Source of the DNA: a virus
Virus record (IMG/VR): IMGVR_UViG_3300020139_000039
Coordinates: 1-24,962 of that record
Length of the DNA: 24,962 nucleotides
Direction: 5' to 3' (one strand)
The position numbers and the translations under genes were made by a program. Numbering within the stretch: position 1 is the stretch's first letter; each line of letters begins with the position of its first letter. The notes beneath the pieces are model-generated. The model was not told the origin of the DNA. It saw nothing but the letters and a program-made list of their open reading frames with translations, and searched no databases. Shown here one piece after another: positions 1-24,962 of this stretch.

Positions 1-192
1 TTCGAACGCTCTAGGGAGATAGGATAGCAGACGAGAAAGCTGGTCAGGTAGATTAACTACAAAAGGCACTAACTTCTTGATAGCGTCACCAAGCAGTTCG
101 AACGCTCTAGGGAGATAGGATAGCAGACGAGAAAGCTGGTCAGGTAGATTAACTACAAAAGACACTAACTTCTTGATAGCGCCACCAAGCAG
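1..192 (-). repeat. In-frame 96-bp tandem repeat (32-residue unit)
   Basis: Bases 1-96 and 97-192 are two copies of one 96-bp unit with only two mismatches (positions 66 and 86 of the unit). A third copy starts at 193 but matches for only about seven bases. The unit length is a multiple of three and encodes a 32-residue amphipathic helical segment of the tape-measure-like gene. The array probably continues beyond the left edge. Confidence 0.95.
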
Positions 193-4222: not shown

Positions 4223-4229
4223 CTTAGTC

Positions 4230-4239
4230 TTTTTGTTAC
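4230..4239 (-). promoter_or_regulatory. GTAACAAAAA element just upstream of an SD-less start
   Basis: On the minus strand GTAACAAAAA lies 7 bases before the ATG of the hub gene, where an SD would be expected but is missing. The same ten bases occur as both arms of the inverted repeat at 21889-21924. One of those arms is 4 bases before the only plus-strand gene, which also lacks an SD. It could be a promoter initiator for one of the phage polymerases (leaderless or short-leader mRNA) or an enhancer of translation. Confidence 0.4.
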
Positions 4240-4254
4240 CAGGTCAATGCTCCC

Positions 4255-4296
4255 TTCGATCGTCAGCGCAAAAACGCGATCGTCAACGAAAAAAAA
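4255..4296 (-). repeat. Two direct copies of a CGATCG-containing 20-bp element
   Basis: The plus-strand sequences CGATCGTCAGCGCAAAAA (from 4257) and CGATCGTCAACGAAAAAAAA (from 4277) are direct repeats spaced exactly 20 bp apart. They lie between the terminator of the upstream unit and the hub gene. A third close copy lies at 22639-22659 beside another terminator. The spacing and position suggest an operator or phage promoter element; the A-tract of the second copy also serves as the terminator U-tract. Confidence 0.45.
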
Positions 4297-4331
4297 CTGG
4301 CTGGCATGGTTGACTAAGCTATGCCAGCCAG
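4289..4331 (-). terminator. Intrinsic terminator
   Basis: A perfect 11-bp inverted repeat, CTGGCTGGCAT at 4297-4307 and ATGCCAGCCAG at 4321-4331, has a 13-base loop. In the minus-strand direction it is followed directly by eight T residues (plus-strand A8 at 4289-4296). It lies 11 bases after the stop of the small coiled-coil gene and separates it from the hub-terminase unit. Confidence 0.93.
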
Positions 4332-4341
4332 GCAGAGACTG

Positions 4342-4524
4342 CTATTCGCTCGTCTCTGACTCGATCGACTCCTCTTCCGCTACCATGCTCATGAATACCT
4401 GTAACTTGGCTAGCAAGGCAACCGCCTCTTGCCGAACGGCAGCTTCTGCTTGGAGTTGCTTGCGAAGCAGCTCCAGTCCCTCTTTGAGCAGTGTGTAGGT
4501 GGCTTTTTCAATAACTCCCTTCAT
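4342..4524 (-). CDS. Small helical (coiled-coil) protein, unknown function
   Basis: A 60-residue protein, almost entirely predicted helix, with heptad-like Leu/Ala spacing between residues 10 and 50 (LLKEGLELLRKQLQAEAAV). The C-terminus is acidic (EEESIESETSE). AAGGAGG lies 6 bases upstream of the ATG, one of the best ribosome-binding sites in the window, and a strong terminator follows the stop. It therefore looks like a separately transcribed, well-expressed small gene between the beta-1 terminator and the hub unit. No family recognised. A small scaffold, capsid-associated or regulatory protein are all possible. Confidence 0.75.
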   Translation of the reverse strand: MKGVIEKATYTLLKEGLELLRKQLQAEAAVRQEAVALLAKLQVFMSMVAEEESIESETSE

Positions 4525-4761: not shown

Positions 4762-7686
4762 TTACTCCGCGAGTAAGAGCTCTTTATAATACTGTTGTAG
4801 GCTTTCTTGAGACATAACCTTCTCAGTACCGAGGGGTAAGCCTAGCGCATAAAGGAAGTGATAAAGCATTTGGTTGGATTGTACGGACTCAGGTTGTGAG
4901 GGTAAGGAGCCACTCTTCAATGCTAAAGCGATCAAGCTTTCCTTTGAGAGGATATCGTCAGCCTTCGGACCTAGTACCTCTATACAGTTCTCTAGAGCTC
5001 CATAGGCAAGCAAGTTCCATATCTCCATCTCCCCCACTCTTTGTCCAGAGGGAGTACTCTCATCTTCAACAGGCAAGAGTGTTCTAGAGTGATAAGGACC
5101 CACACTACGGACTGAGAACTTTGCGTCTACAGTATGGACGAGTGGTATAGTGTATATAGACCCGTAACCACATTCAAGAGACGTACGTGGGAACTTCCAA
5201 CGTCTCGTAAGTGGTACATCAAATAACTTACATACTCTTTCAACCATTATGTGTGAGTTCTTAGTATAGAGTGGTAGTTCCAGAGTAATCCCATTCTGCA
5301 AGAGTTCTTGTAGTTGCTCTTCTGGTGAGAGATCTTGTATATGGATGTACGGTATCGCCCCTCCAGTCTCTCTCTCCAAAATCTTCAACAAGGAGATGGC
5401 CTCATTATACTTCCGACGAGAGACCAAAGACTCAACCTTACGTGAGACTACCTTAATAACCTCACCTAAGTGCATTTCCAATATCTGTCCTACGTTCATC
5501 CTAGACACAACGCCCAAAGGATTAAGTACTATGTCAGGCACAAAACCATCTTCACTAGTGAACAACTCGTTAGGTACTATCCGTGAACATACGCCTTTGT
5601 TTCCGTGTCTGTTTCCAACTTTGTCTCCTACTTTAAAGGATCGTGTAACGACTGCTTGTACTTTGATGTGAATGCAATTAGGTCGACCTACTAATTCATA
5701 CTGTTCGGGGTAGTACAGTGGTATGTATTTTGCAATATGTGGTGGTAGGACTTTCTTCAAATGTCTAGGACGATTATGAGCAACTATCCAAGACAGAACT
5801 TGCGAGGAAGACTTATGATGAGAGAGAACTCTCTCATCTCTGAAGTAAGTGTAGATTCGATCTACTACGAGATCGTAATCAGCAATAATCTTAGACTCAT
5901 CCGCTCCTGCACACAAAATATTCACAGGATTCTTAGGTGAGGGTATCCATTTGAATAACACATCACCCTTTCTATAGAACTTGTTTTCTTGAGGACATAC
6001 AAGGAGAACTTCATCTGGTCTCAGAGTTAACTCATACTCGATTACCTGTTTAGTAGCTAGTTTGGAGGCACCTTTCTCAGTGACAACTACAGCGTCCTCA
6101 TAGTTCCAACCGAATGCTGGTACAAACACTACATCTAGATTCACTCCAGGACAATGCCTGTGGAACTTGATGGAATAATGTGACATAATAGAAGATTGTG
6201 GCTCAATAGTGTCTTTGGTAGTAGGACTCCAAAGAGCATTGGGCACTCTACATAAGAATATGTGATCTGTGTCATCCTTTATAGCAATCACTTCTTTGTC
6301 CCTATAGATAACGGATCCACTTCTGGATGCACGTTTGTAGTAAAGAGATTGCTTGGTTGCTTCTGCTAAGTAATGGGTGGAGACATAAGGGATTTCTGGA
6401 CGAACAGGAGTTAATGCTTGTCTCAAAAAGTTTGCACCCATTTGTAGCCTATTACCATCGTCGTGAGCATTGAATGGTACACAACTAAGAGCTACACTCA
6501 AAATAGAACCATCTTTCTTGTGCCCAACGAAAAAGCCCCAGGGTCCTAGCTCACAGTCAAACGCGAGCTGAAGTCGAGTTCCAATACCTTGGTCATCAGG
6601 TGTGTCATAACAACATATGGATCCTAACATAGTGGGATGAACATCTCTCATATCGTAGGGTGCAAATTCTACAGGCATGAGAATCTTGTATTTCATCGAG
6701 AGTTCTTTGAACATTGAAGAGACATCATAGTATTCAAAGAATCTTTGTAAGCGTATATCCACAAACATACGCTTGAGTAAGAAGTCGCTTGCGAGACGAG
6801 GCACCTTTTGGTGTTTCGCTTGTGCTGCGAGTTCCGCTAGCTTCTCATACAAAACGATCATAACGTTCTCATAAGAACGCACTCGTTTGAACGCAAGATT
6901 AGAACTCACCAAATCGCCCTCTTTGAACTTTAGTAACTGGTCACACGTATATCTTATCAAGGATCGAGCATCCTCTAGCTTGTAAATGACTCTAGTAATT
7001 GGATCCAAGAGTATTTCCTCTATAAACTCTACTACTTCAGGAGATAATGTAGCAGCCGAGCGTAAGTCAACATTCACCGCAGCAGGTCTAGCATGCATTG
7101 ACAGACTATGGGCAACAATCCTCTGGAGAGGATGTAGTGTATCTAGTGGCTGTCCAATCTTCAAATACAACTTAGATCTCTTAAACCCCAAACTGTAGGT
7201 CTCCTGCTTATCAGTCAACTCCCACAGTAAACCTCTTTGCTTAAGCTCCTCTTCTGTGAATGCCCAATAGAAGAGAGTCCACAAAGGTACAAGCTCATTT
7301 TTGAGCTTGATCCTTCCAAACTCGTCACTAACGCATGCGACTGTAGATCCTTGCCAACGAATGATCAAATGGTGTCCAATACTCCTAGGGGATACTAATT
7401 GGTCTGTGAGCTCATTAGTGAGCACTCGGAATGTGTCTTCGACCACATACAAGTCATCTTCATTTGGTATGGGCAGTTTGAATGTTAGAGAGAAAGTGGA
7501 GAATTGTGCAGTCACATTCACAACGTTTGAAAAGTGAAAACCACATAACTGAGACCTCGTTGGAGGTTGAATCTGCCATTCTTGAAGTTCACATCCAAGC
7601 TTTCTAGCAGTCCATTGTAATAAGGTAGGAAGTAGTTCCTGAATGCAAGAGTTAAACTCGTGTCTCCGCCACTGCGGTACTCTCAT
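4762..7686 (-). CDS. Phage DNA-directed RNA polymerase beta subunit, set 1
   Basis: A 974-residue unsplit homologue of bacterial RpoB, shorter than cellular beta (about 1,100-1,350). Numbered from the ATG, YDTPDDQGIG (about 360) corresponds to cellular ETPEGPNIGL. HDDGNRLQMGANFLRQA (about 408-424) matches the DDANRALMGANMQRQA segment, and WNYEDAVVV (about 527-535) the FED segment. GDKVGNRHGNKG at about 687-698 has both active-site Lys residues. GQRVGEMEIWNLLAYGA near 881-897 is the C-terminal anchor. The N-terminal 350 residues are highly diverged. The start is the ATG at 7686, 5 bases after GGAGG, rather than the GTG at 7692. The gene overlaps the beta'-1 end by 35 bases, so the order is rpoC-like then rpoB-like, the reverse of bacteria. 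No alpha or omega gene is nearby, as in phiKZ-type enzymes. The catalytic machinery appears functional. Confidence 0.95.
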   Translation of the reverse strand: MRVPQWRRHEFNSCIQELLPTLLQWTARKLGCELQEWQIQPPTRSQLCGFHFSNVVNVTAQFSTFSLTFKLPIPNEDDLYVVEDTFRVLTNELTDQLVSPRSIGHHLIIRWQGSTVACVSDEFGRIKLKNELVPLWTLFYWAFTEEELKQRGLLWELTDKQETYSLGFKRSKLYLKIGQPLDTLHPLQRIVAHSLSMHARPAAVNVDLRSAATLSPEVVEFIEEILLDPITRVIYKLEDARSLIRYTCDQLLKFKEGDLVSSNLAFKRVRSYENVMIVLYEKLAELAAQAKHQKVPRLASDFLLKRMFVDIRLQRFFEYYDVSSMFKELSMKYKILMPVEFAPYDMRDVHPTMLGSICCYDTPDDQGIGTRLQLAFDCELGPWGFFVGHKKDGSILSVALSCVPFNAHDDGNRLQMGANFLRQALTPVRPEIPYVSTHYLAEATKQSLYYKRASRSGSVIYRDKEVIAIKDDTDHIFLCRVPNALWSPTTKDTIEPQSSIMSHYSIKFHRHCPGVNLDVVFVPAFGWNYEDAVVVTEKGASKLATKQVIEYELTLRPDEVLLVCPQENKFYRKGDVLFKWIPSPKNPVNILCAGADESKIIADYDLVVDRIYTYFRDERVLSHHKSSSQVLSWIVAHNRPRHLKKVLPPHIAKYIPLYYPEQYELVGRPNCIHIKVQAVVTRSFKVGDKVGNRHGNKGVCSRIVPNELFTSEDGFVPDIVLNPLGVVSRMNVGQILEMHLGEVIKVVSRKVESLVSRRKYNEAISLLKILERETGGAIPYIHIQDLSPEEQLQELLQNGITLELPLYTKNSHIMVERVCKLFDVPLTRRWKFPRTSLECGYGSIYTIPLVHTVDAKFSVRSVGPYHSRTLLPVEDESTPSGQRVGEMEIWNLLAYGALENCIEVLGPKADDILSKESLIALALKSGSLPSQPESVQSNQMLYHFLYALGLPLGTEKVMSQESLQQYYKELLLAE

Positions 7687-10525
7687 TGACACCTCCTCTT
7701 AATTCTCTCAAACCTTTGAGATCTGAGAGCGCAAGTCTCTCTAATGGAGAGAGTTGTCGTGATGACTGGGTGTAGACCATTTGTAAGAAGAACTTCCTGA
7801 AGTTCTCAAAGCATAGGCTCAAGAGCAATCTATGATGTGGGAGTGAAGAGATGCTCTCTAAAAGGACTTCTGTCTGAGAATCTATAGGAGAATCGGTAAA
7901 CCTAAGAGGGTGTCCCGTAGAAGGATTCCTCATTCTCTCGCTCCACAGTACCTCTCCATGAATACCCAATAGTACATGGTAGTTATCATATATCTTCTCC
8001 AACCGCTCTAGAGCCTCCAAAGCTCCTGCAAGTGTAGTCTTGGTGTTCGATCCTAGGATCCTGCTCACAAACAGTAAGTCTGTTGCTAGGTCACTAGCAC
8101 TGACAACGATCTTCAGTACTGGAGTGTTTGCCTTAACCCTAACCTCTTCCCCACTACTCTCTAGCAACCATTTTGTATTAATTGGAATAGTGACTTCGTA
8201 TTCGGTGTCTTCACCCACACGAATGCGTATATCGAACTCTTCACTGACGATACCTTCTCTATCGATAGGTAGCGGAGTGGGTAATACTAGAGTGCAATCT
8301 GTGGTAGTTGTCACAATATCATCATCGCCCACACGAAGAGCGGGGGAGAGGTCTGCAAACTGAGCCTCAGCAGCACCACCTACATGGAATGTTCTCATCA
8401 CCAACTGTAGAGAGACTTCACCAAAAGATTGTGCACTTACGATGCCAGGGAAATCGAACTCATAAGGATAGCATCTCTTACAGAAATCAGATGACTTGCA
8501 AAACAGTGGAGAACGTAGCACAACAGTCTTCCCAATATAAGATGTAATGTTGTCCCTAGTAATTCTCTCGCCTTCCATTGTATATCTGCCTATCCACTTG
8601 CGCTTGTTTTGCGTAGTGATCTCCACAATACGTCCTCGAGTAGTACCACAGTCCTCTAATTGACCCTTCCTTAGATGTTGGAGTGAGAACACTAGTTTCC
8701 GCAGTAAGTAACCTGCTGTTGCTGTATTGAGCGCTTTATCTATTGCGCCCTTTCGATTACCTGCAGAAGATAGTACCATCTCCAATGGGGAGAGTCCTTC
8801 TGTGAGCGAGGATAGGATTGGAGGAGTGATAAGCTTTCCTAAAGTATTCCTCACAAGTCCCTTAAGGCCTACTACTTGCATCCACTGACCTATATTTCCT
8901 CTTGCGCCAGAGTGTATCATCGCTGCAATATTGGAGGATAGTTGGAGAGACTCACGTGTATTCTTCATCTTCTCCCAGAACTCTTTCACTTGAGAAGTTG
9001 ACCATTTCTTCACAGAAGCATAAGACTGCTTCCAATCGGAAGGTGGCACTATCAAGTCTTTCAATGAGATACTGACACATGCAGTGAATGGTAACAGATA
9101 TCTCTGCAAGTTGTATAATCGTTGTGTGAAGTCCTGAGGGGACAACTGGTGAGATAATCCTTCACAAATATCGTATAGTTGGGACTTTCCTAGCACTCTA
9201 TCAATGGGTACACCCAATAGTTCAGATACAACTGCTCTGCCCGCTGTAGTTACTCTTCCATTCCACTTTATCCATGTATGTGGATCCAACATAGGAAGTT
9301 CTTGTTTTGAGCAAGGACGGGGATCGTCAGGACAAGGCTCCTTAGGATCGGATGTCACATACCAAAGAGCGATGACCAAGTCTTGAGTAAAACTATCAAA
9401 AGTTAACGAGCCTGGCTTCAATGGATTGTGAGAGAATGTCATCTTTGAAGCCTCTTCTTGGGCAGCTTTTGTAAGAGGTACATACATAGCCATAGTGTCG
9501 CCATCGAAGTCAGCATTAAAGCCGGTTGTTACCAACATAGGTATTGCTATAGCGTCACTATCTGTTGCGAGTTTTGGCTTGAACGCTCTAATGGAAGGTC
9601 TATGTAGAGTGGGCTGTCTATTGAGCAATATGTAAATTTGTTTGCTTAGTTCTGCTGCCACATGTTCAATTTCTTTCCTCAATTGTAGAGAGACGCTATC
9701 TGGATTCCTTATGAATGCTTCTACTAATTTTTGCGTACTCAGTGGGTCTCTATGTCGTGATAGTTCGTAGATGACTACTGGCTCTAGAGCGGCTACCAAC
9801 ATTCTCGTTGGAATGCGAGCCTCATCTGGATGTAGAGTGGGATCTATAACAATGACAGACCTACCTGTGAAATCATTTCTCTTTCCAAGAATGCTTTGAC
9901 GAATGAGACCCTCTTTCTTGGATAAGAGCTGAATGATATACTTGTAATAGTTCACACATACTCTCAATACGGAGAACTTTGTGAAAGTACTATGTGAGAG
10001 GCTCTCTCTAGCTGCATTCAGAAGGTGCAATAGACTAAGGTAGAAGAAGTTGATCCTATCCATCTCTCTGATGCCATCTCTCTGTGAGATAGGTCTGTAG
10101 AGAGGAGGGATGACTGTAATCCTATCTATGAATAGTGGGAAGGACTCTGCAAACTTTTCAAACTTCTCAGGATGTTGTCTAATGTACTCTTCGATTTGAG
10201 TGTACCGGTTTGCGTCAGCAACTCTTTGAGATACATCTCCCAAAGTACTAGGAATCAAAAACATTACTGCTAGTGGGTTGGGGATAGAGAAGGGCAACTG
10301 AATGTAGCTCACTACGTGCCTTCTCAACAAGGAAGGACCAATCAAGACATTACACTCAGGGCACCTCTGTCCTAGGTAGGTGAATCCTTGGAGCTTTCCA
10401 CACTGACATTGGTAGTCCTTTACTGGACCGAATATGACTTGCGACCAGAGACCTAGAGGGTGGAACTGATCTCCACCAATCCAGATCTCTGTACTCGAAA
10501 CAGGTATCTCAGATACGATAATCAT
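7652..10525 (-). CDS. Phage DNA-directed RNA polymerase beta' subunit, set 1
   Basis: A 957-residue, single-chain RpoC homologue. The N-terminus retains the cellular zinc-binding domain, preceded by FGPVKDY, with Cys40, 42, 55 and 58 at the same spacing as Escherichia coli Cys70/72/85/88. FTGRSVIVIDP (219-229) and LLNRQPTLHRPSIRAF (300-315) follow. The catalytic NADFDGD is at 337-343 (Mg-binding Asp339/341/343). The bridge helix is near 584-612 (SAGNRKGAIDKALNTATAGY). A second zinc site has Cys626, 676, 682 and 685, and the trigger-helix segment VMRTFHVGGAA is at about 709-719. The C-terminal part is much shorter than in bacteria but still ends in a plausible jaw/clamp tail. AAGGAGG precedes the ATG. 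A putative terminator directly upstream suggests its own regulation. Phage jumbo polymerases normally split this subunit; here it is whole. Confidence 0.96.
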   Translation of the reverse strand: MIIVSEIPVSSTEIWIGGDQFHPLGLWSQVIFGPVKDYQCQCGKLQGFTYLGQRCPECNVLIGPSLLRRHVVSYIQLPFSIPNPLAVMFLIPSTLGDVSQRVADANRYTQIEEYIRQHPEKFEKFAESFPLFIDRITVIPPLYRPISQRDGIREMDRINFFYLSLLHLLNAARESLSHSTFTKFSVLRVCVNYYKYIIQLLSKKEGLIRQSILGKRNDFTGRSVIVIDPTLHPDEARIPTRMLVAALEPVVIYELSRHRDPLSTQKLVEAFIRNPDSVSLQLRKEIEHVAAELSKQIYILLNRQPTLHRPSIRAFKPKLATDSDAIAIPMLVTTGFNADFDGDTMAMYVPLTKAAQEEASKMTFSHNPLKPGSLTFDSFTQDLVIALWYVTSDPKEPCPDDPRPCSKQELPMLDPHTWIKWNGRVTTAGRAVVSELLGVPIDRVLGKSQLYDICEGLSHQLSPQDFTQRLYNLQRYLLPFTACVSISLKDLIVPPSDWKQSYASVKKWSTSQVKEFWEKMKNTRESLQLSSNIAAMIHSGARGNIGQWMQVVGLKGLVRNTLGKLITPPILSSLTEGLSPLEMVLSSAGNRKGAIDKALNTATAGYLLRKLVFSLQHLRKGQLEDCGTTRGRIVEITTQNKRKWIGRYTMEGERITRDNITSYIGKTVVLRSPLFCKSSDFCKRCYPYEFDFPGIVSAQSFGEVSLQLVMRTFHVGGAAEAQFADLSPALRVGDDDIVTTTTDCTLVLPTPLPIDREGIVSEEFDIRIRVGEDTEYEVTIPINTKWLLESSGEEVRVKANTPVLKIVVSASDLATDLLFVSRILGSNTKTTLAGALEALERLEKIYDNYHVLLGIHGEVLWSERMRNPSTGHPLRFTDSPIDSQTEVLLESISSLPHHRLLLSLCFENFRKFFLQMVYTQSSRQLSPLERLALSDLKGLRELRGGVNESTAVAETRV

Positions 10526-14243: not shown

Positions 14244-17200
14244 CTATACACCTACTTTTAGGGTTACACCTAAAGCTAACAACAGTCGCTCTAAGTACTC
14301 CCTATTTCTAGGAGGTATAGTCAGCTCTCGCAAAGAGACACTTCCTGTATCTATAATCCTTCTCCAGATCTGTGGAGACACATCTTTAGGCACTGCAAAG
14401 AGCTCTTTTACAAGTGCAGGAGTATCTCTGCTCAACAAGACCCAACTCATTTGCTCGTCAATCTTTTGTCCACCAAATTTCTTCTTCCCCTGTAGTGCAC
14501 TACCAAGAGAAGCATAAGATCCTACGGATCTAGCTGTCTCCTTTGCTCTAGCTTCATGTACGAGTTTGTATATGTAAAGGTATCCTACATGTACAGCAAT
14601 AGCGCTTAATCCGAACTTGGATCTCACCCTAGTGGTAGTAGGTATGTTGTAAGTAGCAAGTACCTTCTTTATCTGTTCCCAAGTTGGTTCCTTGAATGGA
14701 GGCACAAAGATAGGTACGAACTGTTTCTGCTTTGCTAAAGCTTCACACATCGAGGTTACAGCCTTCTTTGAGGTATTATCCAACGAGTCAACAATAGTTC
14801 TCATTGTCTCTATAGCTCGTGAGCTGTAACCCTCTTTAGTGAGTAACTCGTTATACCAGTGTACGATATTTGAGAGTGCTAGCTCGTAGAGCTGTCCAAC
14901 ATTCATTCTATTGAATACACCTATAGGGTTTAGTACTAGATCGAATGGTCTCCCACGTTCGTCTTTGAACATCTCTTCATCTGGGAACACTACACTAATA
15001 ACTCCTTTATTCCCATGTCTATTGGTCAACTTATCTCCCTCACTTGCTATACTTTGCCACTCTAAGTAGAACTCAAATACGCCCAGTACTGGTTCATCTT
15101 TGTAGAGAACTCTGGATTGTACTGTGAGATCTTTTTCGTACGTCTTTAGTGCGAGACTAGTCTGCAACAATTGTGGAGTAACAACTGCTCGTTTCAGACG
15201 CACATGGACGTCAGTGTGTGCTATAACCGATTGCTGATTACCTAATCTTTCAAACACTACATCCTGTTTTGAGAAATCCTCTACCATCTCAGACTCAGAG
15301 GAAGCAGTACCACTAATTACAAAAATAGGATCTCCTCTCTTCACCAAACCAGTGCTAATCTTAGTAACCGATTGACGAGGTAGTACCTTGATGACGATTC
15401 TATTGCCTGCACTAGAGGTCAACTTTTTGGATGCGCTTTCAGATACGATCACTGCATCCTCAAAAACTGTGAGGGACGGAACGAATGCTGTATAGAGGTT
15501 TACTCCAAGTGTAAGAGGACCTCTAGAGTGGAACTCTTCCGCAACAGCTACCTCATCACCTACCTTAACTTTACTGCCAAGCTTCACTACTGGTGACCAA
15601 TGAATAAAATTGCTGTATCCTGATAGAGTAGGCTCTAACGAGATGGTGTACTTTCTTTTTGGAGAGGAAGCAATCACGATATGGTCTCTAGTCACTTCCA
15701 CTACCTCACCTGCTACAGGGGATCTCTTGTTGTATGTAGTTAGCTCCCTTATCGTGTACTCCCAACCTGTTTGTACATAGGGCACTTCACTGTAGACTAG
15801 TGGTATAGCTTGTCGTACATGGTTAGCCGCCATATGTAGTCTGTTTCCATCATTGAACCTAGCATATGGCACAGTACTAAGAGCTACACCAAAGGGATAC
15901 TCCTCATCTGCAGTCTCCAAAGTGGAGTTTGGAGTGATTCTAGCTGGCAGAGCTAAACGCTGAACCAAACCAACTGCGTCTCCACTAGGAGTGTCCACAG
16001 GATCAATAATACCCTTTGCTTTTGGATGGAAGTTCCTAGATGAGAAACTAGCATGCTCTCCCATATGCTGATAACTTACAGAAGTCAGAGAAGAGAGTGC
16101 ACTTACAGCATTGGTAGTATCAAGGAGCACTACTCTACCTTCTGCTATCAAACTCTTCACTAGAATCTCCTCACCAAATGCAGACAGTTGCTTTCCTGCG
16201 CGAGCTACATATACAGCAACCAGATGTGCCAACACTTCGTCTAACTCTTGAGACTTAACATTCAGTAGGGAGACATCTGTAGGAGAATGTACTACCCCTC
16301 TAGCAGATAAAGTAGCTAGCGTATAGAAGACTCCCAATGAGTCGTTCGGATCTAGATTCCAACGTTTGCTCTCCATTTGCCATGCAACATCATTTATGAG
16401 TCCCACTTGCCTCTCAAACTTCCTTATCAAAGTAGGATCACCAAATCTCTCAGTTAATGCTTGCGTCCATGTTAGTGAGCTCAATGGATCTCCCGTTTTA
16501 GGCGTATAAACTTTGAGGCCATTTAGGAGGGCCTCTTGCAATCTATTGGTCACTTTGAACGTAGTACGTGCGTGTGAAGTGTTCATAACAATGTCTTGTG
16601 TCTCTTTGTAGACACTCTCAGTCTGAATGCCAAACTTCTCAAGTACTTGGTTAGGAGGGTAGAGCGCAAACAGGAACTGTACTAGAGGAAGTGAGGTTCC
16701 TAGTACGGAGACATAAAGCATAGGTTTCCTATATACTTCTCTGAACACGACTTCGAAGAATGTCAATGTGTTATTGAACTTTGCTACAAAGATCTTAGGT
16801 GTAGAGATAACGGGTGGTGCTAGCTTGTAACGCAAAACATAAGGGTTTCCTCTATACCAGAACACTGAATGTTCGTCAACGATAGGTACAAGGACAGACC
16901 AAGTTTGTCTCTCTTTGGAGTCTATATCTTCGAGTACATAGGTCCATCTCTCGAGTGTGGAGTAAGTAACTTCATCACCGGGATCATAGGGCTTTCTAGA
17001 GAAGGAGACTACACGAAAACCTAACATTGGAGGGAAATGTAATGAGGAAAGTCTCTTGGCTATCACTTCGTTGTCTCGCGTGACCAAAGTAGGATTGTAC
17101 GAGACTCCTAGTGCAGTAGTCCTTACATCCTGACGTGCGCTTAATGTATGAGCCATTCTCACTACTTGCGGTCTCAGATGTTGGAGAAATCTTTGTACCT

Positions 17201-18182
17201 CTTTCTCGGTGGGCTCCACTTGAGCATTAGAGAGTGCTAGCCAAAGAGCCTTAGTAATGATACGTTGGGCTGCTCTCTTACGATAGTCCTGTACAGACAT
17301 TGTAGGGCGTTCTCGTGTGGTGGCGTCATCTGGAGAACGTTCGAACTCCTCAGCTTGCTCAGGTGTATCCTTAGCGGGTTCGGGCAGAGCTAGATCCAGA
17401 TCGCTAAACTTAACTAGTCTCACATATCGTGTCAGAACCGCCTTTGCTTGAGAAGCTTCCCTAGGTGGAAGGATAGACTCGAGTTCCTTGTTAGCAGTAT
17501 CAAGCACCTCCCTAGTATGTTTCTTTTGTCTCTCTTTGTCTAACAGATCGGGACGTAGCTTGACTCTCAAGAATGGTAGTACGAGTCTGAAGTTAGACTC
17601 GCTACCGTACTTTACACATATCCACGAAAGCTTACCACCTGTTTGGTAGGCTCCCACCAAGATTCCATTCAAGTGAGGACAATTCTCCAATAGCCTAGCT
17701 AACCATACAGGGTGAGTCATTAGATCTGCGTAGGAGTCTAGGTTCTTTCCCGTCCAATCACTGGCACTACTCACAATTAGAAGCCACTTGCTCTCTCTCT
17801 GTATCTCCTTCAAATATTCACACAAAGACGAAGCTAGTGCTTTCCATTGAGGACGTATGAAGTAATCGCCATACAATCCTATAGCTTGCCTGATTAATGG
17901 ATCTATGGGCCACAACAAAGAGACGTTCCTATCGTTCACATCTCGGAGGGTTCTCACAATTGCTCTCCGCCAAGGAGCGCGCTGGTGGAGTTCGGTATAG
18001 CCTTGCGTTAGTGTCCATTGACGTTGGAGGTGTATAGTTTGTGGTTCGTAGGCTACCTTAATAGGCTTGGACCAAGGCATGTAGAACCCCTCTTGTGTAC
18101 CATATGTAATGCATAAAACATCATAGGGGTCTACATAGAGACTGGTTGTGGTCTGTCCCAATTGGATTGTGTCTAATCTCAC
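14244..18182 (-). CDS. Phage DNA-directed RNA polymerase beta subunit, set 2, with long N-terminal extension
   Basis: A 1,312-residue RpoB homologue starting at GTG (GTGA overlap with beta'-2; GGAGG ten bases upstream). Residues 1 to about 380 show no cellular beta motif and include an acidic Glu/Asp/Pro-rich linker at about 265-292. The beta core begins near 385, with LVPIVDEHSVFWYRGNPYVL (431-450) taking the place of the ING/ERV region. VDTPSGDAVGLV (729-740) corresponds to ETPEGPNIGL. NDGNRLHMAANHVRQA (777-792) matches the DDANR segment, and FEDA is at 907-910. GDKLTNRHGNKG (1049-1060) has both catalytic Lys, and FGGQKIDEQMSWVL (1236-1249) is the C-terminal anchor. It is only distantly similar to beta-1, so this is not a recent duplication. 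It is longer than most phage beta parts, which are usually split in two. Confidence 0.95.
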   Translation of the reverse strand: MRLDTIQLGQTTTSLYVDPYDVLCITYGTQEGFYMPWSKPIKVAYEPQTIHLQRQWTLTQGYTELHQRAPWRRAIVRTLRDVNDRNVSLLWPIDPLIRQAIGLYGDYFIRPQWKALASSLCEYLKEIQRESKWLLIVSSASDWTGKNLDSYADLMTHPVWLARLLENCPHLNGILVGAYQTGGKLSWICVKYGSESNFRLVLPFLRVKLRPDLLDKERQKKHTREVLDTANKELESILPPREASQAKAVLTRYVRLVKFSDLDLALPEPAKDTPEQAEEFERSPDDATTRERPTMSVQDYRKRAAQRIITKALWLALSNAQVEPTEKEVQRFLQHLRPQVVRMAHTLSARQDVRTTALGVSYNPTLVTRDNEVIAKRLSSLHFPPMLGFRVVSFSRKPYDPGDEVTYSTLERWTYVLEDIDSKERQTWSVLVPIVDEHSVFWYRGNPYVLRYKLAPPVISTPKIFVAKFNNTLTFFEVVFREVYRKPMLYVSVLGTSLPLVQFLFALYPPNQVLEKFGIQTESVYKETQDIVMNTSHARTTFKVTNRLQEALLNGLKVYTPKTGDPLSSLTWTQALTERFGDPTLIRKFERQVGLINDVAWQMESKRWNLDPNDSLGVFYTLATLSARGVVHSPTDVSLLNVKSQELDEVLAHLVAVYVARAGKQLSAFGEEILVKSLIAEGRVVLLDTTNAVSALSSLTSVSYQHMGEHASFSSRNFHPKAKGIIDPVDTPSGDAVGLVQRLALPARITPNSTLETADEEYPFGVALSTVPYARFNDGNRLHMAANHVRQAIPLVYSEVPYVQTGWEYTIRELTTYNKRSPVAGEVVEVTRDHIVIASSPKRKYTISLEPTLSGYSNFIHWSPVVKLGSKVKVGDEVAVAEEFHSRGPLTLGVNLYTAFVPSLTVFEDAVIVSESASKKLTSSAGNRIVIKVLPRQSVTKISTGLVKRGDPIFVISGTASSESEMVEDFSKQDVVFERLGNQQSVIAHTDVHVRLKRAVVTPQLLQTSLALKTYEKDLTVQSRVLYKDEPVLGVFEFYLEWQSIASEGDKLTNRHGNKGVISVVFPDEEMFKDERGRPFDLVLNPIGVFNRMNVGQLYELALSNIVHWYNELLTKEGYSSRAIETMRTIVDSLDNTSKKAVTSMCEALAKQKQFVPIFVPPFKEPTWEQIKKVLATYNIPTTTRVRSKFGLSAIAVHVGYLYIYKLVHEARAKETARSVGSYASLGSALQGKKKFGGQKIDEQMSWVLLSRDTPALVKELFAVPKDVSPQIWRRIIDTGSVSLRELTIPPRNREYLERLLLALGVTLKVGV

Positions 18183-21100
18183 AGTAGTAGTTCCTCCAGA
18201 GCGCTTTTGGGTTCTTTCTCGGATGAGTACAACATCCTCATGACTCCTACTCCTGGGTTAGCAAACATTAAGGCTAGCAATGGAGAGGTACTAGCGATTG
18301 CAGTCTGTAGAGAGACGATCTGTGGTGGCTTGTCTTGATGATGTCTCCAAAAGAGTTCAGGATCATCCTTCACTCGATTGAGAAAGCTCACTAAGAGTTC
18401 AAAATGTATGAGTGGAAGAGTAGCAACAGTCTTGTAACTGTTGTATATGGCTCTCAGTAGAGAGAGTGAGTCGAACACCGGCTTGTCAAGTAGAGAGGTG
18501 ACATATGCTACAAGAGAAGTTACATCGCTAGCTAAAGAGAGTAATTCACCTACCACATCCCCTGGCTTAAAGGTAAACGCTAGATGGTGTACATCGATAA
18601 CCTCAGGTCTAACGCTCACTGGTATAAGCAAAGATGTCGTAAGCCTCCAAGTTGTGCTTTGTCCATCTACTTTGACTTGCAGAGTTTGTGGATACACAAC
18701 TATTCCTTCACTGGTGGAAGATGCTAACTTCTTATCGAGTGTAATAAATAACTCCAATTGCTTGAGTGCTACAACTACACCTTTCTTTGCCTGTACAAAT
18801 GGTGGAACGTCAACAAAAGCTAACAACTCTGCTGCTCCACCTGTATGGAACGTTTTCAAGACTAACTGTGTACCCCTCTCCCCTAAAGTCTGAGCGCTTA
18901 TAAGACCAATCTCTTTTGAACGATGTATCTCCAAAAGTTTTCCATAACATACCTCACATATACCTTTAGGATCCCTACAGTAGATAGGGGAGCGAATGAC
19001 CACGGGCTTCTCCAACGCTTCGTGAGTTATCACACTTCCATCCATTGTATACCTACCAAGCAGAGCTCTGGAGGGGTAGTCGTTAGGTGATACCCTCAAT
19101 CCTGTAGAGGTCCTACAATCTCTGGACGCTAGTCTTACAGGTGCAAGCAAATAGGTTAACTTTCGTGTAAGGTATCCAGCATCTGCAGTACCCAAAGACT
19201 TGTCAATGATACCCTTCCTCCAGCCAGGAGCGGAAGCATATATGTCATTGGGAGACAACCCCACAACATAACTGTTTCTGATAGGTTCCACAATAATCCT
19301 TCCAGTAGGATCTGACACAAACCCTCTAGCAATTGCTATCTGTCTAAGTGCAGACATTCCTTTGGTTGCTCCACTATGTACAAAAGCCCAAAGATTTGGA
19401 CTGAGAGAGGGAAGTTTCTTCCGCACTTGCTCCTCAACCTTCGTTAGAGTAGTCTGGAAGTTTATAGGTTCTTTTGCTTGTGCTAAAGAGGAAAGCATGT
19501 CTTTTGGTATCTGGAAGTCACCTACGGATATGCTGACAGGAAATCTATGCAACACTAACTCACAAACCTTCGCTAACCTACGATAGAACACGTTCAGTCC
19601 AGAAGTGTCAAATCGAGAAGTGACTTGGGAGAGTATTCTGTCACCAGTCTTAGAGGTTACAACCTCATCGATCCACATATTGAGATTATGTATAGTGTTA
19701 AAGATATACCGCCCCAAAGTAGTTCTGAACGTCTTATTTGCATACCTCACATAGGTCTGAGAAGAGAGGTCATAGTTCCAAATGAGTTCCTCATAGGGTG
19801 GCTCTTCCTTTGCAGGAAATTCTACAGTACGATTGAACGCCTTTCCAACTTTGTACGCGATTGGTAACGACTCTGCGGTCAACAAAAAGAGAGCTAACAC
19901 ATAATCCAACTTCAAGTCGAACCAAACCGCTCCTGTACCACTAGCTCGGAGGTTCCTCGAAGGCAATAAAGAGAGAGCCTCCCGCTGTGCTTCTACTGTC
20001 TGCGGAGCAAACACAGACATAGTATCTCCATCAAAATCTGCATTTAGTGGGGATGTGATATGTGGAGGGATGCTCATGACATAAACGTCCTTAATAGGTG
20101 ACTTATAACCTATGGGCCTTACAGCAAAGACACTCCCCCTATGTAAAACAGGATCTCTCTTTACTATAACTACCTTATCTTCCACCACTATGTCGATTAC
20201 TTTAGAGAACAGTTCCTCTAGGTCTAATTCCAACCCTCTTGAATAGTAAGCCTTCAAGAGAGCAAACACAACTGATTCTGAAGTAGGAATCGTGAGTCCT
20301 TTTTGTGCTAGAAATTGGGAGACTGCCTTTGGTGGGTGTAGGAGTAAGCGAATGATATGTGGAGCAAAGAGCATTGCAAGAACCCTATACGGTATCTTAA
20401 CATAGTCGATATCCAGAGATGGATCCACTGTGATTACTAACCTAGCAGAGAAGTCAGTCCTCCTAACGAGCAATTGACTTCTGAAGATACCTTCCTTACC
20501 CCTCAGACCTTCAATTATCTCCTCTACCAGCTTGGACAGAGTTGCCTGTAAGAGTTGAGGAGACTTCTTAGTAGGCTCAATCTGCATGTATAGGAGGTCT
20601 ATAGGGTGTACAACCCAACCCCTTGCGGGATCTAGATAGAGGGGCCTTAGAGCTGGAGGTAGAATGAGAACCTTGGTAGGCAAAAGTACTTTCAAATTAG
20701 TGTTTTGTAGAATACGACGAATGAGGAGAGGGACCTCTTTGCTTAGAGATGCTCTAGCCTCCCAGAGTGCTTTCACTAGTTCCTTACCTGTAAGACCATC
20801 CTTCGGAACTTGTACAAGCACTCCATCTTTGATCACTACTGGAGTGATACCCAATAGGCCTTGATATAAGAGCTTGGACTTCTTTTTACATACATACACA
20901 AATAGTGGGTGAATGAATTCGACACCCACATCATAGTAACATACCTTCACTCTCTTATCATCTTCAGTCTTATAGATGGAAGGAGAGTGTAGCCCTTCTA
21001 CATCTAGTTGGTCCTTCGTCCTAAAAATACGCAGTCTGGGAATCTGCTCAAGAGCATTCTTCCGGATATACTCATCGATGTCTATTAACTCTAATCTCAT
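18179..21100 (-). CDS. Phage DNA-directed RNA polymerase beta' subunit, set 2
   Basis: A 973-residue, unsplit RpoC homologue. RRTDFSARLVITVDP (213-227), VLHRGSVFAVRP (318-329) and the catalytic NADFDGD (353-359; Asp355/357/359) are present. So is a bridge helix near 623-650 (GWRKGIIDKSLGTADAGYLTRKL). The second zinc site is intact (Cys662, 708, 715 and 718, the last three spaced exactly as in E. coli), as is the trigger segment LVLKTFHTGGAA at about 746-757. The N-terminal zinc ribbon seen in beta'-1 is lost: only two isolated Cys (54 and 71) remain there. The start overlaps the preceding stop as ATGA without a clear SD. It is followed directly by beta-2 (GTGA overlap), again in beta'-then-beta order. 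Confidence 0.95.
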   Translation of the reverse strand: MRLELIDIDEYIRKNALEQIPRLRIFRTKDQLDVEGLHSPSIYKTEDDKRVKVCYYDVGVEFIHPLFVYVCKKKSKLLYQGLLGITPVVIKDGVLVQVPKDGLTGKELVKALWEARASLSKEVPLLIRRILQNTNLKVLLPTKVLILPPALRPLYLDPARGWVVHPIDLLYMQIEPTKKSPQLLQATLSKLVEEIIEGLRGKEGIFRSQLLVRRTDFSARLVITVDPSLDIDYVKIPYRVLAMLFAPHIIRLLLHPPKAVSQFLAQKGLTIPTSESVVFALLKAYYSRGLELDLEELFSKVIDIVVEDKVVIVKRDPVLHRGSVFAVRPIGYKSPIKDVYVMSIPPHITSPLNADFDGDTMSVFAPQTVEAQREALSLLPSRNLRASGTGAVWFDLKLDYVLALFLLTAESLPIAYKVGKAFNRTVEFPAKEEPPYEELIWNYDLSSQTYVRYANKTFRTTLGRYIFNTIHNLNMWIDEVVTSKTGDRILSQVTSRFDTSGLNVFYRRLAKVCELVLHRFPVSISVGDFQIPKDMLSSLAQAKEPINFQTTLTKVEEQVRKKLPSLSPNLWAFVHSGATKGMSALRQIAIARGFVSDPTGRIIVEPIRNSYVVGLSPNDIYASAPGWRKGIIDKSLGTADAGYLTRKLTYLLAPVRLASRDCRTSTGLRVSPNDYPSRALLGRYTMDGSVITHEALEKPVVIRSPIYCRDPKGICEVCYGKLLEIHRSKEIGLISAQTLGERGTQLVLKTFHTGGAAELLAFVDVPPFVQAKKGVVVALKQLELFITLDKKLASSTSEGIVVYPQTLQVKVDGQSTTWRLTTSLLIPVSVRPEVIDVHHLAFTFKPGDVVGELLSLASDVTSLVAYVTSLLDKPVFDSLSLLRAIYNSYKTVATLPLIHFELLVSFLNRVKDDPELFWRHHQDKPPQIVSLQTAIASTSPLLALMFANPGVGVMRMLYSSEKEPKSALEELLL

Positions 21101-21928: not shown

Positions 21929-22630
21929 ATGCCACTAACTCCTTCATCCTTACTAACATGGATTAAACAGGAGCTCGGACATCCGTACTTCGCAATTGAG
22001 CGAACGGATGAAGAGCTGTTAACATTGATTAGGGATGTCACACTTCCTTTGTTTTCAAAGTATGTACCTCTGGTAAGCTTTAAGCATCTTACGAGCGCAG
22101 ACTTAGCTCCGGGTACAGTGAACGAATACTTGTTGAACGATCCAGACGGAGTGATCACGGTGTTGGATGTACTATTGCCTATTACTATACCGTGGACACT
22201 AGGACACCCCTGGTTGTTAATGCCTGGATTCGATGAACTGCCAAATACAATTATAGACATACATGTCGCAAGAACGAGACAATTATACAGTTTGTGGAGA
22301 CACGCATGGGAGTTCATACCGCCTAACAGATTGTTTATCTATCCTAGTAGGTTACAAGGAGTATCGTTCCTAGTGAGATATGAGAAAATACACTTGAAGG
22401 ATTTCTCCACTATACCCGCTAGGTTTGAGCATTCCTTTAGGAACTTGGCACTAGCTACTGTCTTAGACAACATTGCGAGCGTTAGAAGTAAATATCAAAC
22501 AATAGCTACACCTTTTGGTGAGATAACTCTGAATGTAGAGGATTTGCGTACGAGAGCTGATACGCTGAGGACACAGGAGCTTGAGCGTCTCTCCACATTG
22601 CCTCCTAACACTATTGTTGAGTTAGCATAG
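21929..22630 (+). CDS. Probable virion neck/connector structural protein
   Basis: A 233-residue protein and the only plus-strand gene. Its layout resembles small neck or connector proteins of large myophages: a helical start with TDEELLTLIRDVTLPLFSKYVPLV, a strand-rich middle, YPSRLQGVSFLVRYEKIHL, and a C-terminal helix. That C-terminal part contains RSKYQTIATPFGEITLNVEDL and ends in LERLSTLPPNTIVEL. I recall that the PFGEI..N.EDL pattern recurs in phage structural proteins, but I cannot align it here. The ATG at 21929 has no SD; a GTAACAAAAA element ends four bases upstream, and no in-frame start with a better site exists nearby. The opposite strand carries a shorter frame that is a shadow. 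The gene is confident, the role moderate. Confidence 0.68.
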   Translation: MPLTPSSLLTWIKQELGHPYFAIERTDEELLTLIRDVTLPLFSKYVPLVSFKHLTSADLAPGTVNEYLLNDPDGVITVLDVLLPITIPWTLGHPWLLMPGFDELPNTIIDIHVARTRQLYSLWRHAWEFIPPNRLFIYPSRLQGVSFLVRYEKIHLKDFSTIPARFEHSFRNLALATVLDNIASVRSKYQTIATPFGEITLNVEDLRTRADTLRTQELERLSTLPPNTIVELA

Positions 22631-22638
22631 GTTTTTGT

Positions 22639-22659
22639 TTCGATCGACAGCGAAAAAAA
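22639..22659. other. Third copy of the CGATCG-containing element
   Basis: TTCGATCGACAGCGAAAAAAA matches the two repeats at 4255-4296 (one substitution in the core CGATCGTCAGCG). It again adjoins the T-tract of a minus-strand terminator. With TTTTTGTTTCG just before it, it can form an AT-rich hairpin after the plus-strand gene. Confidence 0.4.
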
Positions 22660-22688
22660 TAAGGAGGTGGTTGGCCAGGCCGCCTCCT
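22653..22688 (-). terminator. Probable intrinsic terminator after the Csx3-like gene
   Basis: AGGAGGTGG (22662-22670) and CCGCCTCCT (22680-22688) form a 9-bp stem with one imperfect pair and a 9-base loop. In the minus direction it is followed by TTA and seven T residues (plus A7 at 22653-22659). It ends the Csx3-like transcript before the convergent plus-strand gene. Confidence 0.75.
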
Positions 22689-22699
22689 CTTGACCACAA

Positions 22700-22951
22700 C
22701 TAAAATGGGTCGTGGTCGAAGATAACTAGATCACCAGTTACTGGCGATCTATAGATTAACTTTTTTGCAGAGCCGTGCAACGCGTGCGCTACTGCCAAAT
22801 ACAGCCATACTGGGCCTGCTCCAGTGAGTACAATTATGTTTCCCGCTCCTGCCTGCGAGCGCGCCTTGGTTATATACTCAGGTAGCATAGCCACCTTTGC
22901 TTGTTGACCGTGGCCGTACAGATCCTGCATGTCTATTATAACCTCAGACAT
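22700..22951 (-). CDS. Csx3-like small protein (candidate cyclic-oligoadenylate ring nuclease / anti-CRISPR)
   Basis: An 83-residue protein. Its second half, IIVLTGAGPVWLYLAVAHAL then H at 59 and LIYRSPVTGDLVIFDHDP, follows the order of the Csx3/Crn3 family: V-x-S/T-G-x-G-P-x-W-L, then L-x-H-x-x-H, then V-Y-D-P-R-L-G, then strands ending S/D-H. Conserved here are Gly44-Ala-Gly-Pro47, Trp49, His56 and His59. The YDPRLG acid and Arg are not conserved at face value (IYRSP instead), so activity is uncertain. Csx3 degrades cA4, the second messenger of type III CRISPR. In a phage such a protein would be expected to block immunity. The ATG at 22951 is preferred over 22957 because the SD is 9 rather than 3 bases away. 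It is followed by a terminator and flanked upstream by a structured leader. Another small alpha/beta fold is possible. Confidence 0.62.
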   Translation of the reverse strand: MSEVIIDMQDLYGHGQQAKVAMLPEYITKARSQAGAGNIIVLTGAGPVWLYLAVAHALHGSAKKLIYRSPVTGDLVIFDHDPF

Positions 22952-22957
22952 AGCCAT

Positions 22958-22967
22958 TCACCTCCTT
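22958..22967 (-). promoter_or_regulatory. Extended Shine-Dalgarno of the Csx3-like gene
   Basis: AAGGAGGTGA on the minus strand is complementary to nearly the whole anti-SD. Two in-frame ATGs follow, 3 and 9 bases from GGAGG; the second has the usual spacing. This is the strongest ribosome-binding site seen in the window and suggests high expression. Confidence 0.85.
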
Positions 22968-22994
22968 TCCTTCTAAAACGCCCACCCACCCCCT

Positions 22995-23089
22995 AGGATT
23001 TTGAGTCCTGCGAGGTTAACCCTAGCTTTCCAGGAGTGGCCAGCTCCCTTCCGGCTAGAGCCCTGAGCTCTGCAGCGCTCAGTAGGGCT
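22995..23089 (-). ncRNA. GC-rich, hairpin-dense leader or small structured RNA upstream of the Csx3-like gene
   Basis: About 60 percent G+C over 22981-23090 by hand count, clearly above the flanks. In transcript order on the minus strand it can form three hairpins. The first (23059-23089) has 6 plus 4 bp and a 3-base bulge. The second (23022-23058) is a CTAGC/GCTAG stem enclosing GGAG/CTCC with a palindromic TGGCCA loop. The third (22995-23009) is AGGA/TCCT with a 7-base loop. A self-complementary GGTTAACC lies between the second and third. None is followed by a T-tract. It could be a structured 5' leader, a small RNA or a tRNA-like relic; no known class was recognised. Confidence 0.4.
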
Positions 23090-23095
23090 TATTTG

Positions 23096-23110
23096 ATAAA
23101 AAATATATGT
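23096..23110 (-). promoter_or_regulatory. ACATATATT motif, copy 3, upstream of the structured leader
   Basis: On the minus strand ACATATATTTTTTATC (core 23102-23110) starts three bases after the TAG of the preceding gene and just before the hairpin-rich stretch and the Csx3-like gene. Here it is well placed to be a promoter for that gene. Confidence 0.4.
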
Positions 23111-23113
23111 AGA

Positions 23114-23566
23114 CTACTTCCTTACTTTGCGCCTACGCTTTTGCCCTCCCATGGGGGGTTGTAAATGTGCAAACAGTCGAGCGAGCTGTTCCATATCTGG
23201 AGCCTCTTCTTCTAATACCGAAGCAGGTTTATCCAGTGCTTCGAAGAGCTTAGCGGCTACACGTTCTGCTAGCTCTTCCTCATTCATATAAAGTCTGGGA
23301 TCCATTTTAAGCTGCAAAATGTCCCCCCAACGATTTTGCTCCATTTGCTCCAGAAACTGCCTGAGTATCTCTAAATTCTTCTGGAACATCACAGGCGAAC
23401 ATTCTTGAGCGGAGTTTACCTTCACGAAAGTATTGATGCATAACTGAGCACACGTAGATGGCACTCCTTGTAGCCTCTCTACAGTGAGCCAAGAGACGTC
23501 ATACTCCGGAATCTCCTCATTTACGAGTCTTCTTGTTTCGTCAACAAACAATTTCAGTTTGTCCAT
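23114..23566 (-). CDS. Unknown protein with basic C-terminus
   Basis: A 150-residue protein, mainly helical. Acidic helices occupy about 83-130 (EEELAERVAAKLFEAL, EEEAPDMEQLARLF), and a strongly basic tail (QKRRRKVRK) ends the chain. Three Cys lie at about 39-58 in no recognisable metal-binding spacing. The start at 23566 is chosen because GGAGG lies 5 bases upstream; the longer frame from 23593 lacks a site. It is separated from the previous gene by about 65 bases that hold only a short AGCT hairpin. The basic tail suggests nucleic-acid contact, or a structural role such as internal head protein. No family recognised. Confidence 0.66.
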   Translation of the reverse strand: MDKLKLFVDETRRLVNEEIPEYDVSWLTVERLQGVPSTCAQLCINTFVKVNSAQECSPVMFQKNLEILRQFLEQMEQNRWGDILQLKMDPRLYMNEEELAERVAAKLFEALDKPASVLEEEAPDMEQLARLFAHLQPPMGGQKRRRKVRK

Positions 23567-23631
23567 ACAAACCTCCAAATATGTTTTTAACAACAGCTAC
23601 ACGCAGCTAATTCCTAGGTTACGAAAACGAC

Positions 23632-24177
23632 TTAAATCTTATAGTAGACCTTAGCTAGGAACCTCAACGTCTGCCTAATGTTGTTAGAGAGCCTCACGAA
23701 GGCTCTGTATACAATTTGTCCTTGTTGTTGGATGTAGGGCAGTTGAGCATCTACTTGTGCACTTAGATAGTCCCAATAAGATGTATATCTGTTGAGATTG
23801 GAGGTAGCTCTCAGAGATTGTGAAGCAACCGACATACGAGTATCATTACAAATCTTGAAAAACCGGAGAAACTGGAAATAGAAGTGCACTAGCGCAAACA
23901 ACATGTAGACGGCCTTTAAGAACTCCTTATCGTCCACATTGTCGTAAGCCCACACAACAAGACAAAGTAGGAATGGTCTCTTCTGAATGAACTCTTTCTG
24001 TTCAGGCTTGAGATCCTTAGGAAGAACAGGTTCGGCCTGATTCAGAAACCTGTTCGTGATGTCTACGATCTCCCTCAGTACTTGCTTATCCACACGCAGA
24101 CATGTTCGCGTAAAGTAGTAAACAGAGAGCTTATTGACAATATGTCTAACTTGAGGTTTCAACACATCGTACGTCAT
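23632..24177 (-). CDS. Unknown helical protein with one or two hydrophobic segments
   Basis: A 181-residue protein. Hydrophobic helices at about 69-77 and 88-108 (AVYMLFALVHFYFQFLRFF) could be a membrane hairpin or a buried core. The C-terminal third is rich in Asn, Gln, Tyr and Arg (LRATSNLNRYTSYWDYLSAQ). The ATG overlaps the preceding stop as ATGA and has no clear SD, so translation is probably coupled to the membrane-protein gene before it. The two may act together at the membrane. No family recognised. Confidence 0.68.
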   Translation of the reverse strand: MTYDVLKPQVRHIVNKLSVYYFTRTCLRVDKQVLREIVDITNRFLNQAEPVLPKDLKPEQKEFIQKRPFLLCLVVWAYDNVDDKEFLKAVYMLFALVHFYFQFLRFFKICNDTRMSVASQSLRATSNLNRYTSYWDYLSAQVDAQLPYIQQQGQIVYRAFVRLSNNIRQTLRFLAKVYYKI

Positions 24178-24851
24178 GGGGTTGGGGAGGACGTACGAGC
24201 ATCAGACTTAGATTTAGATCCGGACTTGTGGTCTGCCGGAACCTCAACCCCAATCCAATGTTTGCCTGTTATGAAAGTTACAACATGCACAAGCACTTGT
24301 TTCAAATATGAACTCTTCTCATCGATCACTAACCAAGACGGAGGTATCAGAAACCTCACAACAAACGCTATTATTATTATCACTATTGCAGTACCAATGA
24401 CCTTCTTGAGAGCATTCCAAATGATTTCTGTAGCTACATACTTAGCACCCTTCTTAATCAGTCCCCATACCTCCTTCAAGAGATCACCTATACCGTATAT
24501 CTCTCCGTAAGCCTTCTTACGCTTGTAGTAGAGCACAAAAAGGGCTATTACCACTACTACTAGAGCACCTACCAGAAGGATAAGGAAGTTTCTCTTTGCT
24601 TTGGGAGAGCCTATAACTACGAGGGATTTCTTCTCGTCCTCTAATACAGACTCTACCATCTCCTCCTTTATATGCGAAACTATGTTCCTTCTTACAACAG
24701 GGTACACAGCACCCAGCCAATCGGGAGCAGCTACTCCCTCGAATATCTTCTGAAGATCCTTAACACCTCGACCTTCTCCAATCCTAGCGAACGTAGGAAG
24801 TGAGGTAGCTACCTCTGTGGGAGAGACTATTCTAGATAATTCTTCAAACAT
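24174..24851 (-). CDS. Bitopic membrane protein, unknown function
   Basis: A 225-residue protein with two clear transmembrane helices at about 89-109 (LILLVGALVVVVIALFVLYY) and 151-169 (VIGTAIVIIIIAFVVRFLI). The helical N-terminal domain is about 85 residues and the C-terminal tail is Ser/Lys-rich. The start at 24851 has AAGGAGG 6 bases upstream; an upstream in-frame ATG at 24875 would place the SD inside the gene. It is coupled to the following gene by ATGA. The general layout (helical N-domain, paired membrane helices) recalls the protein at 12128-13174, but I see no convincing sequence similarity. No family recognised. Confidence 0.72.
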   Translation of the reverse strand: MFEELSRIVSPTEVATSLPTFARIGEGRGVKDLQKIFEGVAAPDWLGAVYPVVRRNIVSHIKEEMVESVLEDEKKSLVVIGSPKAKRNFLILLVGALVVVVIALFVLYYKRKKAYGEIYGIGDLLKEVWGLIKKGAKYVATEIIWNALKKVIGTAIVIIIIAFVVRFLIPPSWLVIDEKSSYLKQVLVHVVTFITGKHWIGVEVPADHKSGSKSKSDARTSSPTP

Positions 24852-24871
24852 AAGCGTCCTCCTTATGGGTT

Positions 24872-24962
24872 TCAACTATTTGTTACGAGCGAGAGAATCT
24901 GGTCGTAGGTGTACTTCTCGAGGACGTCCTCCAAGTTATATATGAGCACCTCCCCATTAAGC
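24872..24962 (-). CDS. C-terminal end of an unknown protein (partial at right edge)
   Basis: An open frame enters from the right edge and stops at TGA 24872-24874, 20 bases before the next start. The visible 29 residues, from LNGEVLIYNLEDVLEKYTYD to the end LVTNS, look like a genuine helical C-terminus. The spacing to the SD of the next gene fits an operon. Too little is visible to name it. Confidence 0.55.
   Translation of the reverse strand, partial: LNGEVLIYNLEDVLEKYTYDQILSLVTNS

Follow-up and report, generated by a model that had tools for sequence, protein, structure and literature searches.

The analysed stretch of DNA (the window) corresponds to an IMG/VR contig with a length of 24,962 bases, a 25-kb fragment of a phage genome. 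It is marked as phage by a terminase large subunit gene (1506-3137, minus strand), and it also carries a tape-measure-like gene at its left end, where the open reading frame (ORF) remains open, and a member of the virion structural protein family phrog_18911 (21929-22630, plus strand; E 4.2e-23) that flanks the small gene considered here, csx3. Two full beta/beta' pairs of RNA polymerase (RNAP)-like subunits, four genes matching phage RNAP PHROGs, lie on the minus strand, with set 1 at 4762-7692 (beta) and 7652-10525 (beta') and set 2 at 14244-18182 (beta) and 18179-21100 (beta'). Taken together, these genes support the phage location of csx3 that was assumed in an earlier, sequence-only reading of this DNA. 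Both pairs (4762-10525 and 14244-21100) appear to be unsplit, and the set 2 beta' subunit shares ~25% identity with RNAPs of Salmonella-, Staphylococcus-, Vibrio- and Yersinia-associated phage records. Possibly, the phage belongs to a new lineage that has both virion and non-virion polymerases. No close relatives were identified in IMG/VR via the terminase or the virion protein, and hence there was no empty site for comparison; likewise, chimallin (ChmA), characteristic of the Chimalliviridae nucleus, was not seen among the proteins scanned from the 25-kb fragment. On the right flank of csx3, three ORFs (23114-24875, minus strand) have no convincing database match, one of them with hydrophobic segments, and no paralogy was found between a right-flank protein and one on the left. 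No cas genes besides csx3 were recognised in the part of the window's ORFs that was scanned for cas families.

The longest csx3 ORF (22700-22957, minus strand) encodes 85 amino acids from an ATG at 22957 (MAMSEVIIDMQDLYGHGQQAKVAMLPEYITKARSQAGAGNIIVLTGAGPVWLYLAVAHALHGSAKKLIYRSPVTGDLVIFDHDPF), with the C-terminal part ...GPVWLYLAVAHALH...YRSPVTGDLVIFDHDPF; in this 85-residue numbering, its key residues are the T45-G46 loop, W51, H58, H61, R70-S71-P72, D81 and H82. The Shine-Dalgarno sequence AAGGAGGTGA (22958-22967, minus strand) directly abuts the first ATG and is separated by 6 nt from a second ATG at 22951, so that the protein probably starts at the latter and has 83 amino acids (probable CDS 22700-22951, minus strand). 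With a pairing dG of -17.5 kcal/mol, versus -14.0 for the next gene, it is the strongest Shine-Dalgarno sequence among the starts checked in the window. Downstream of csx3, a terminator-like hairpin (~22653-22689, minus strand) with a 7+2 bp stem is followed by TTATTTTTTT; as its folding energy is no improvement over shuffles (z -0.17), the argument for a terminator rests on this T-run. The strong translation signal pointed out in the earlier reading is upheld. No sigma-70 promoter was listed for csx3, and promoter-like sites in the scan were no commoner than in shuffles.

Together with its leader and terminator, csx3 forms a 486-bp cassette of foreign composition (22631-23116) between phage genes. 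The tetranucleotide correlation of this cassette with the rest of the window is 0.046, against a background of 0.616 +/- 0.118, and none of 101 background stretches falls below it, which makes it the most foreign stretch of the window. The gene alone (0.012) and the leader alone (0.060) are similarly deviant, whereas the right flank (0.764) lies at the low end of its own background (minimum 0.759). This composition fits a recently inserted cassette, for which no match was found at the DNA level in phage and plasmid records. The leader itself is a G+C-rich intergenic stretch of 156 nt upstream of csx3 (22958-23113, minus strand), as foreign in composition as the gene. It folds into a cloverleaf-like shape with an energy no better than that of shuffles; no tRNA, Rfam or database match was found for it, and its assignment as a tRNA or Rfam RNA was rejected on these grounds. 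Comparisons of phage csx3 with its relatives in cells and viral contigs gave a dN of 0.15-0.44 but no estimate of dS, because of saturation at synonymous sites, and therefore the protein sequence has been under purifying selection over that divergence.

By profile and fold, the ORF at 22700-22957 is a genuine Csx3/Crn3-family gene, with matches that are not attributable to chance. Its product matched Pfam PF09620 (Cas_csx3) with 26.3 bits, above the cut-off of 21 (E 6.5e-6), as well as the PADLOC Csx3 profile (E 4.7e-14) and, most strongly, the C-terminal domain of CARF_HEPN_CSX3, the last 80 residues of that PADLOC profile (E 1.8e-30). The TIGR02579 score of 25.1 bits (E 1.6e-5) is below the equivalog cut-off of 55.4, and for this reason the protein should not be filed as a proven Crn3 equivalog. 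No DUF1874 (AcrIII-1) family appeared in the Pfam and TIGR profile searches. An AlphaFold2 model (pLDDT 94.2, pTM 0.83) had AfCsx3 of Archaeoglobus fulgidus as each of its best seven PDB matches, namely six chains of the cA4-bound structure 6YUD and 6VJG (TM 0.62-0.68, probability 1.00, E-values 0.004-0.02); no convincing match was found among the viral structures of BFVD. The Csx3/Crn3 layout first recognised from the letters alone is therefore borne out by both the profile search and the predicted fold, and neither of the two computable outcomes named beforehand as refuting it, a missing profile match or a different fold, came about.

The active site of AfCsx3 is built between stacked dimers, with H60 and D69 essential, R71 and H80 important and H57 conserved; the changes D69A and R71A abolish or severely reduce its activity, and cA4 fibres are formed by an inactive variant (PMC7371418). 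In the phage protein the equivalents of H57, H60 and H80 are H58, H61 and H82, which are invariant in 26/26 aligned sequences, and the pairs S44-T45, G45-G46 and I49-V50 are likewise kept or conservatively changed. Other positions are replaced: A47 stands for R46, R70/S71 for D69 and V73 for R71, so that Y-R-S-P-V-T-G is found where AfCsx3-type proteins have Y-D-P-R-L-G, and the catalytic D69 and R71 are missing. The whole cellular subfamily to which the protein belongs has the motif Y-x-SP-x-x-G, retaining the three histidines without D69 and R71; in the alignment, position 70 is occupied by R, D, E or S, and D81 is a near-invariant additional acid. The composite site thus has one face intact and the other rebuilt, equally in cellular and phage members. 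The altered YDPRLG motif noted before is real, but it does not indicate a change from enzyme to sponge in the phage, as relatives in type III operons have it too; a phage-specific loss of catalysis was rejected on the same ground. Because cells and phages have the same rebuilt face, the question of enzyme versus sponge extends to the entire subfamily, for no member of which an assay was found in the literature.

Close homologues of phage csx3 are encoded on 29 bacterial genome contigs, and the standalone proteins among them share 53-67% identity with the phage protein (25 aligned, from 25 bacterial genomes). As read from the cluster table, with its representatives identified, rather than from a scan of every neighbour, 27 of the 29 loci have CRISPR genes, mostly type III, within ~3.5 kb, which agrees with the type III connection originally proposed for the family. 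The neighbours include CARF-PDDEXK, CARF-RelE, CARF-HEPN, CARF-TM, Csm4, Csm5, Cmr6, Cas7-IIId, Cas1 and Cas2 genes, and those for CARF-PDDEXK nucleases often overlap or abut the csx3 start. Three loci (L003, L015, L025) have only cas1/cas2-type genes, and in two (L013, L028) no CRISPR genes were found within ~3.5 kb.

The same subfamily is independently present in three further IMG/VR contigs (L031, L033, L034); a single-query scan for them was empty, and the matches came from alignment and motif scans. L031 is certainly phage, with portal, terminase subunit and amidase/endolysin genes in addition to its csx3 relative. The L031 ORF (9869-10237) has an N-terminal extension of ~40 residues that is absent from the cellular standalone proteins. 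L033 (IMGVR_UViG_3300005573_000937) encodes an integrase, a primase-polymerase and a clamp, and L034 (IMGVR_UViG_3300033388_007410) a RecE-like exonuclease; as both also carry type IV cas genes, they may be phages or another kind of mobile element. In L033, a type IV Cas7 gene (1-669, minus strand) lies ~14 kb from csx3, while in L034 type IV Cas7 (Csf2) and Cas5 (Csf3) genes and a PAPS-reductase-like gene (2218-3818 and 3778-4467) are ~1-3 kb away. The four viral-contig proteins are scattered on the tree, with 4 label changes (bootstrap 5-95% range 4-4), although the well-supported branches alone require only one. Crn3 of the classical YDPRLG type occurs in three other IMG/VR contigs (L042-L044), and a Pyramidobacter record of 18 kb that looks like phage encodes it as well. 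One such gene (L043, 9942-10313) belongs to a phage-like element with a Toprim/AAA primase-like gene, and another (NZ_CP133039.1, locus L038, 11361-11645) lies beside the repressor region of an element with an integrase, a repressor and a holin. By tblastn, no Crn3 of either subfamily was found in 50,697 INPHARED phage records, and only AcrIII-1, Csx20 and Csx16, with no Crn3, were reported among 28,114 phages (Hoikkala et al. 2025).

We consider it probable that csx3 is a captured cellular type III ring nuclease of the Csx3/Crn3 subfamily that removes cA4 during phage infection. The virus would have acquired a gene with the Y-x-SP-x-x-G motif from a cellular type III CRISPR system and would express it at a high level upon infection from its own strong ribosome-binding site. 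The protein is predicted to dimerise and to stack head-to-tail around a cyclic oligoadenylate ring, most likely the cA4 produced by Cas10 upon detecting phage RNA, and a metal-dependent hydrolysis centred on H58, H61 and H82 would then open the ring. With the messenger removed, effectors such as Can2/Card1, Csx1 and CARF-RelE would stay inactive, and the virus thus probably uses the product to silence the type III alarm, a use unreported for the Csx3/Crn3 family. This reading draws on the profiles, the AfCsx3 fold, the kept histidines, the cellular CRISPR neighbours, the other viral contigs, the foreign cassette, the strongest Shine-Dalgarno sequence and the dN values. It also has a precedent in MmCsx3, which lowered cA4-dependent type III immunity in E. 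coli, more slowly than AcrIII-1 (PMC7371418), and it suits the exposure of phiKZ-type phages to type III systems. It is weakened by the lack of conservation of the essential D69 and the important R71, by the TIGR02579 score and by a dispute over whether even AcrIII-1 acts as an anti-CRISPR when natively expressed, according to a reference cited in PMC12751052.

Capture of a ring nuclease leaves room for a protein that stacks head-to-tail on cA4 or a different cyclic oligoadenylate, does not cleave it and protects the phage by sequestration. The missing D69/R71 half of the active site, neither residue being conserved, the impairment of the corresponding AfCsx3 variants, the cA4 fibres of an inactive one (PMC7371418) and a Shine-Dalgarno sequence strong enough for a stoichiometric binder would all suit such a sponge. 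However, the two residues are equally absent from cellular members that stand alone beside cA4-type effectors, where a signal-clearing enzyme is usual, and the histidine face used in catalysis and pinning is strictly kept along with D81. Cleavage of cA4 is likelier, since standalone genes adjoining those for CARF effectors point to removal of the signal by members of the subfamily, and we regard sequestration as unlikely. The replaced half-site might instead accommodate another ligand (cA3, cA6 or RNA 3' ends), with a role against CBASS, in RNA metabolism or in tempering a CRISPR-like module of the phage's own. Csx3 was originally described as an RNA deadenylase, as cited in PMC7371418, and type IV Cas7/Cas5 genes accompany csx3 on two related viral contigs; yet its partners in cells are type III effectors and the ORFs scanned in the 25-kb window gave no further cas gene, which makes this a very unlikely explanation. 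Least probable of all is that an assembly error linked a fragment of cellular DNA to the phage, or that the gene was captured recently and has no function. The most foreign stretch of the window and right-flank ORFs without convincing matches could be read in that way, but a misassembly would have to involve two separate joins less than 500 bp apart, in composition the right flank is like the rest of the window, if at the low end, the frame is intact with the invariant residues kept, and the same subfamily recurs in other viral contigs.

A broader proposal, on which we are evenly divided, is that captured ring nucleases of this kind constitute an unrecognised class of viral type III anti-CRISPR: a Crn3 subfamily with a rebuilt site (three histidines and D81, without D69/R71) that unrelated phages would have acquired on several occasions, in this case a phage with two RNAPs of its own, a kind exposed mainly to RNA-targeting CRISPR. 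If so, a further protein family would join the viral means of disarming cyclic-oligoadenylate signalling, and the hosts' own off-switches of the Crn3 family would have been taken over repeatedly. It would also provide a small Crn3 subfamily in which the need for D69 and R71 lends itself to a direct test. Surveys that drop ring-nuclease matches without key conserved residues may miss the subfamily; such discarding is described for false positives in general in the methods of Hoikkala et al. 2025. Should the phage be nucleus-forming, it would exemplify an answer to the one CRISPR class that its nucleus does not stop.

With respect to known viral systems, the earlier view that viral ring nucleases are confined to AcrIII-1 is outdated, as AcrIII-2/vSAVED (PMC12751052), phage Crn4b (PMC12830947) and phage Csx16 and Csx20 (PMC12409355) have also been described. 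Like these and AcrIII-1/Crn2 (DUF1874), which break down cyclic oligoadenylates or are expected to do so, the csx3 product is viral; they belong to families other than Crn3, and several have proven activity, whereas that of phage csx3 is predicted. Viral capture of enzymes degrading cyclic oligoadenylates is already known, but that of a Crn3-type protein is apparently new: neither it nor the Crn3 subfamily itself was found in the open-licence literature, though a report elsewhere may exist. Among cellular systems, the Csx3 domain of CARF-HEPN-CSX3 fusions (PADLOC PDLC01844) and the standalone homologues from Nitrospirota, anammox Planctomycetota, Deltaproteobacteria and Zetaproteobacteria, the latter with the same Y-x-SP-x-x-G motif, belong to the same subfamily as the phage protein and differ in being encoded by cells, within or adjoining type III operons. 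AfCsx3 (AF1864; 6YUD, 6VJG, 3WZI) has the same fold, GxGPxWL loop, AHxxH helix and terminal strand ending in a histidine; the phage-borne protein is ~20 residues shorter, with ~20% sequence identity, and lacks the D69-P-R71 motif. Finally, the two beta/beta' sets are a feature shared with phiKZ-type phages, which are shielded from DNA-targeting CRISPR but leave their exported transcripts open to type III systems (PMC13282480).
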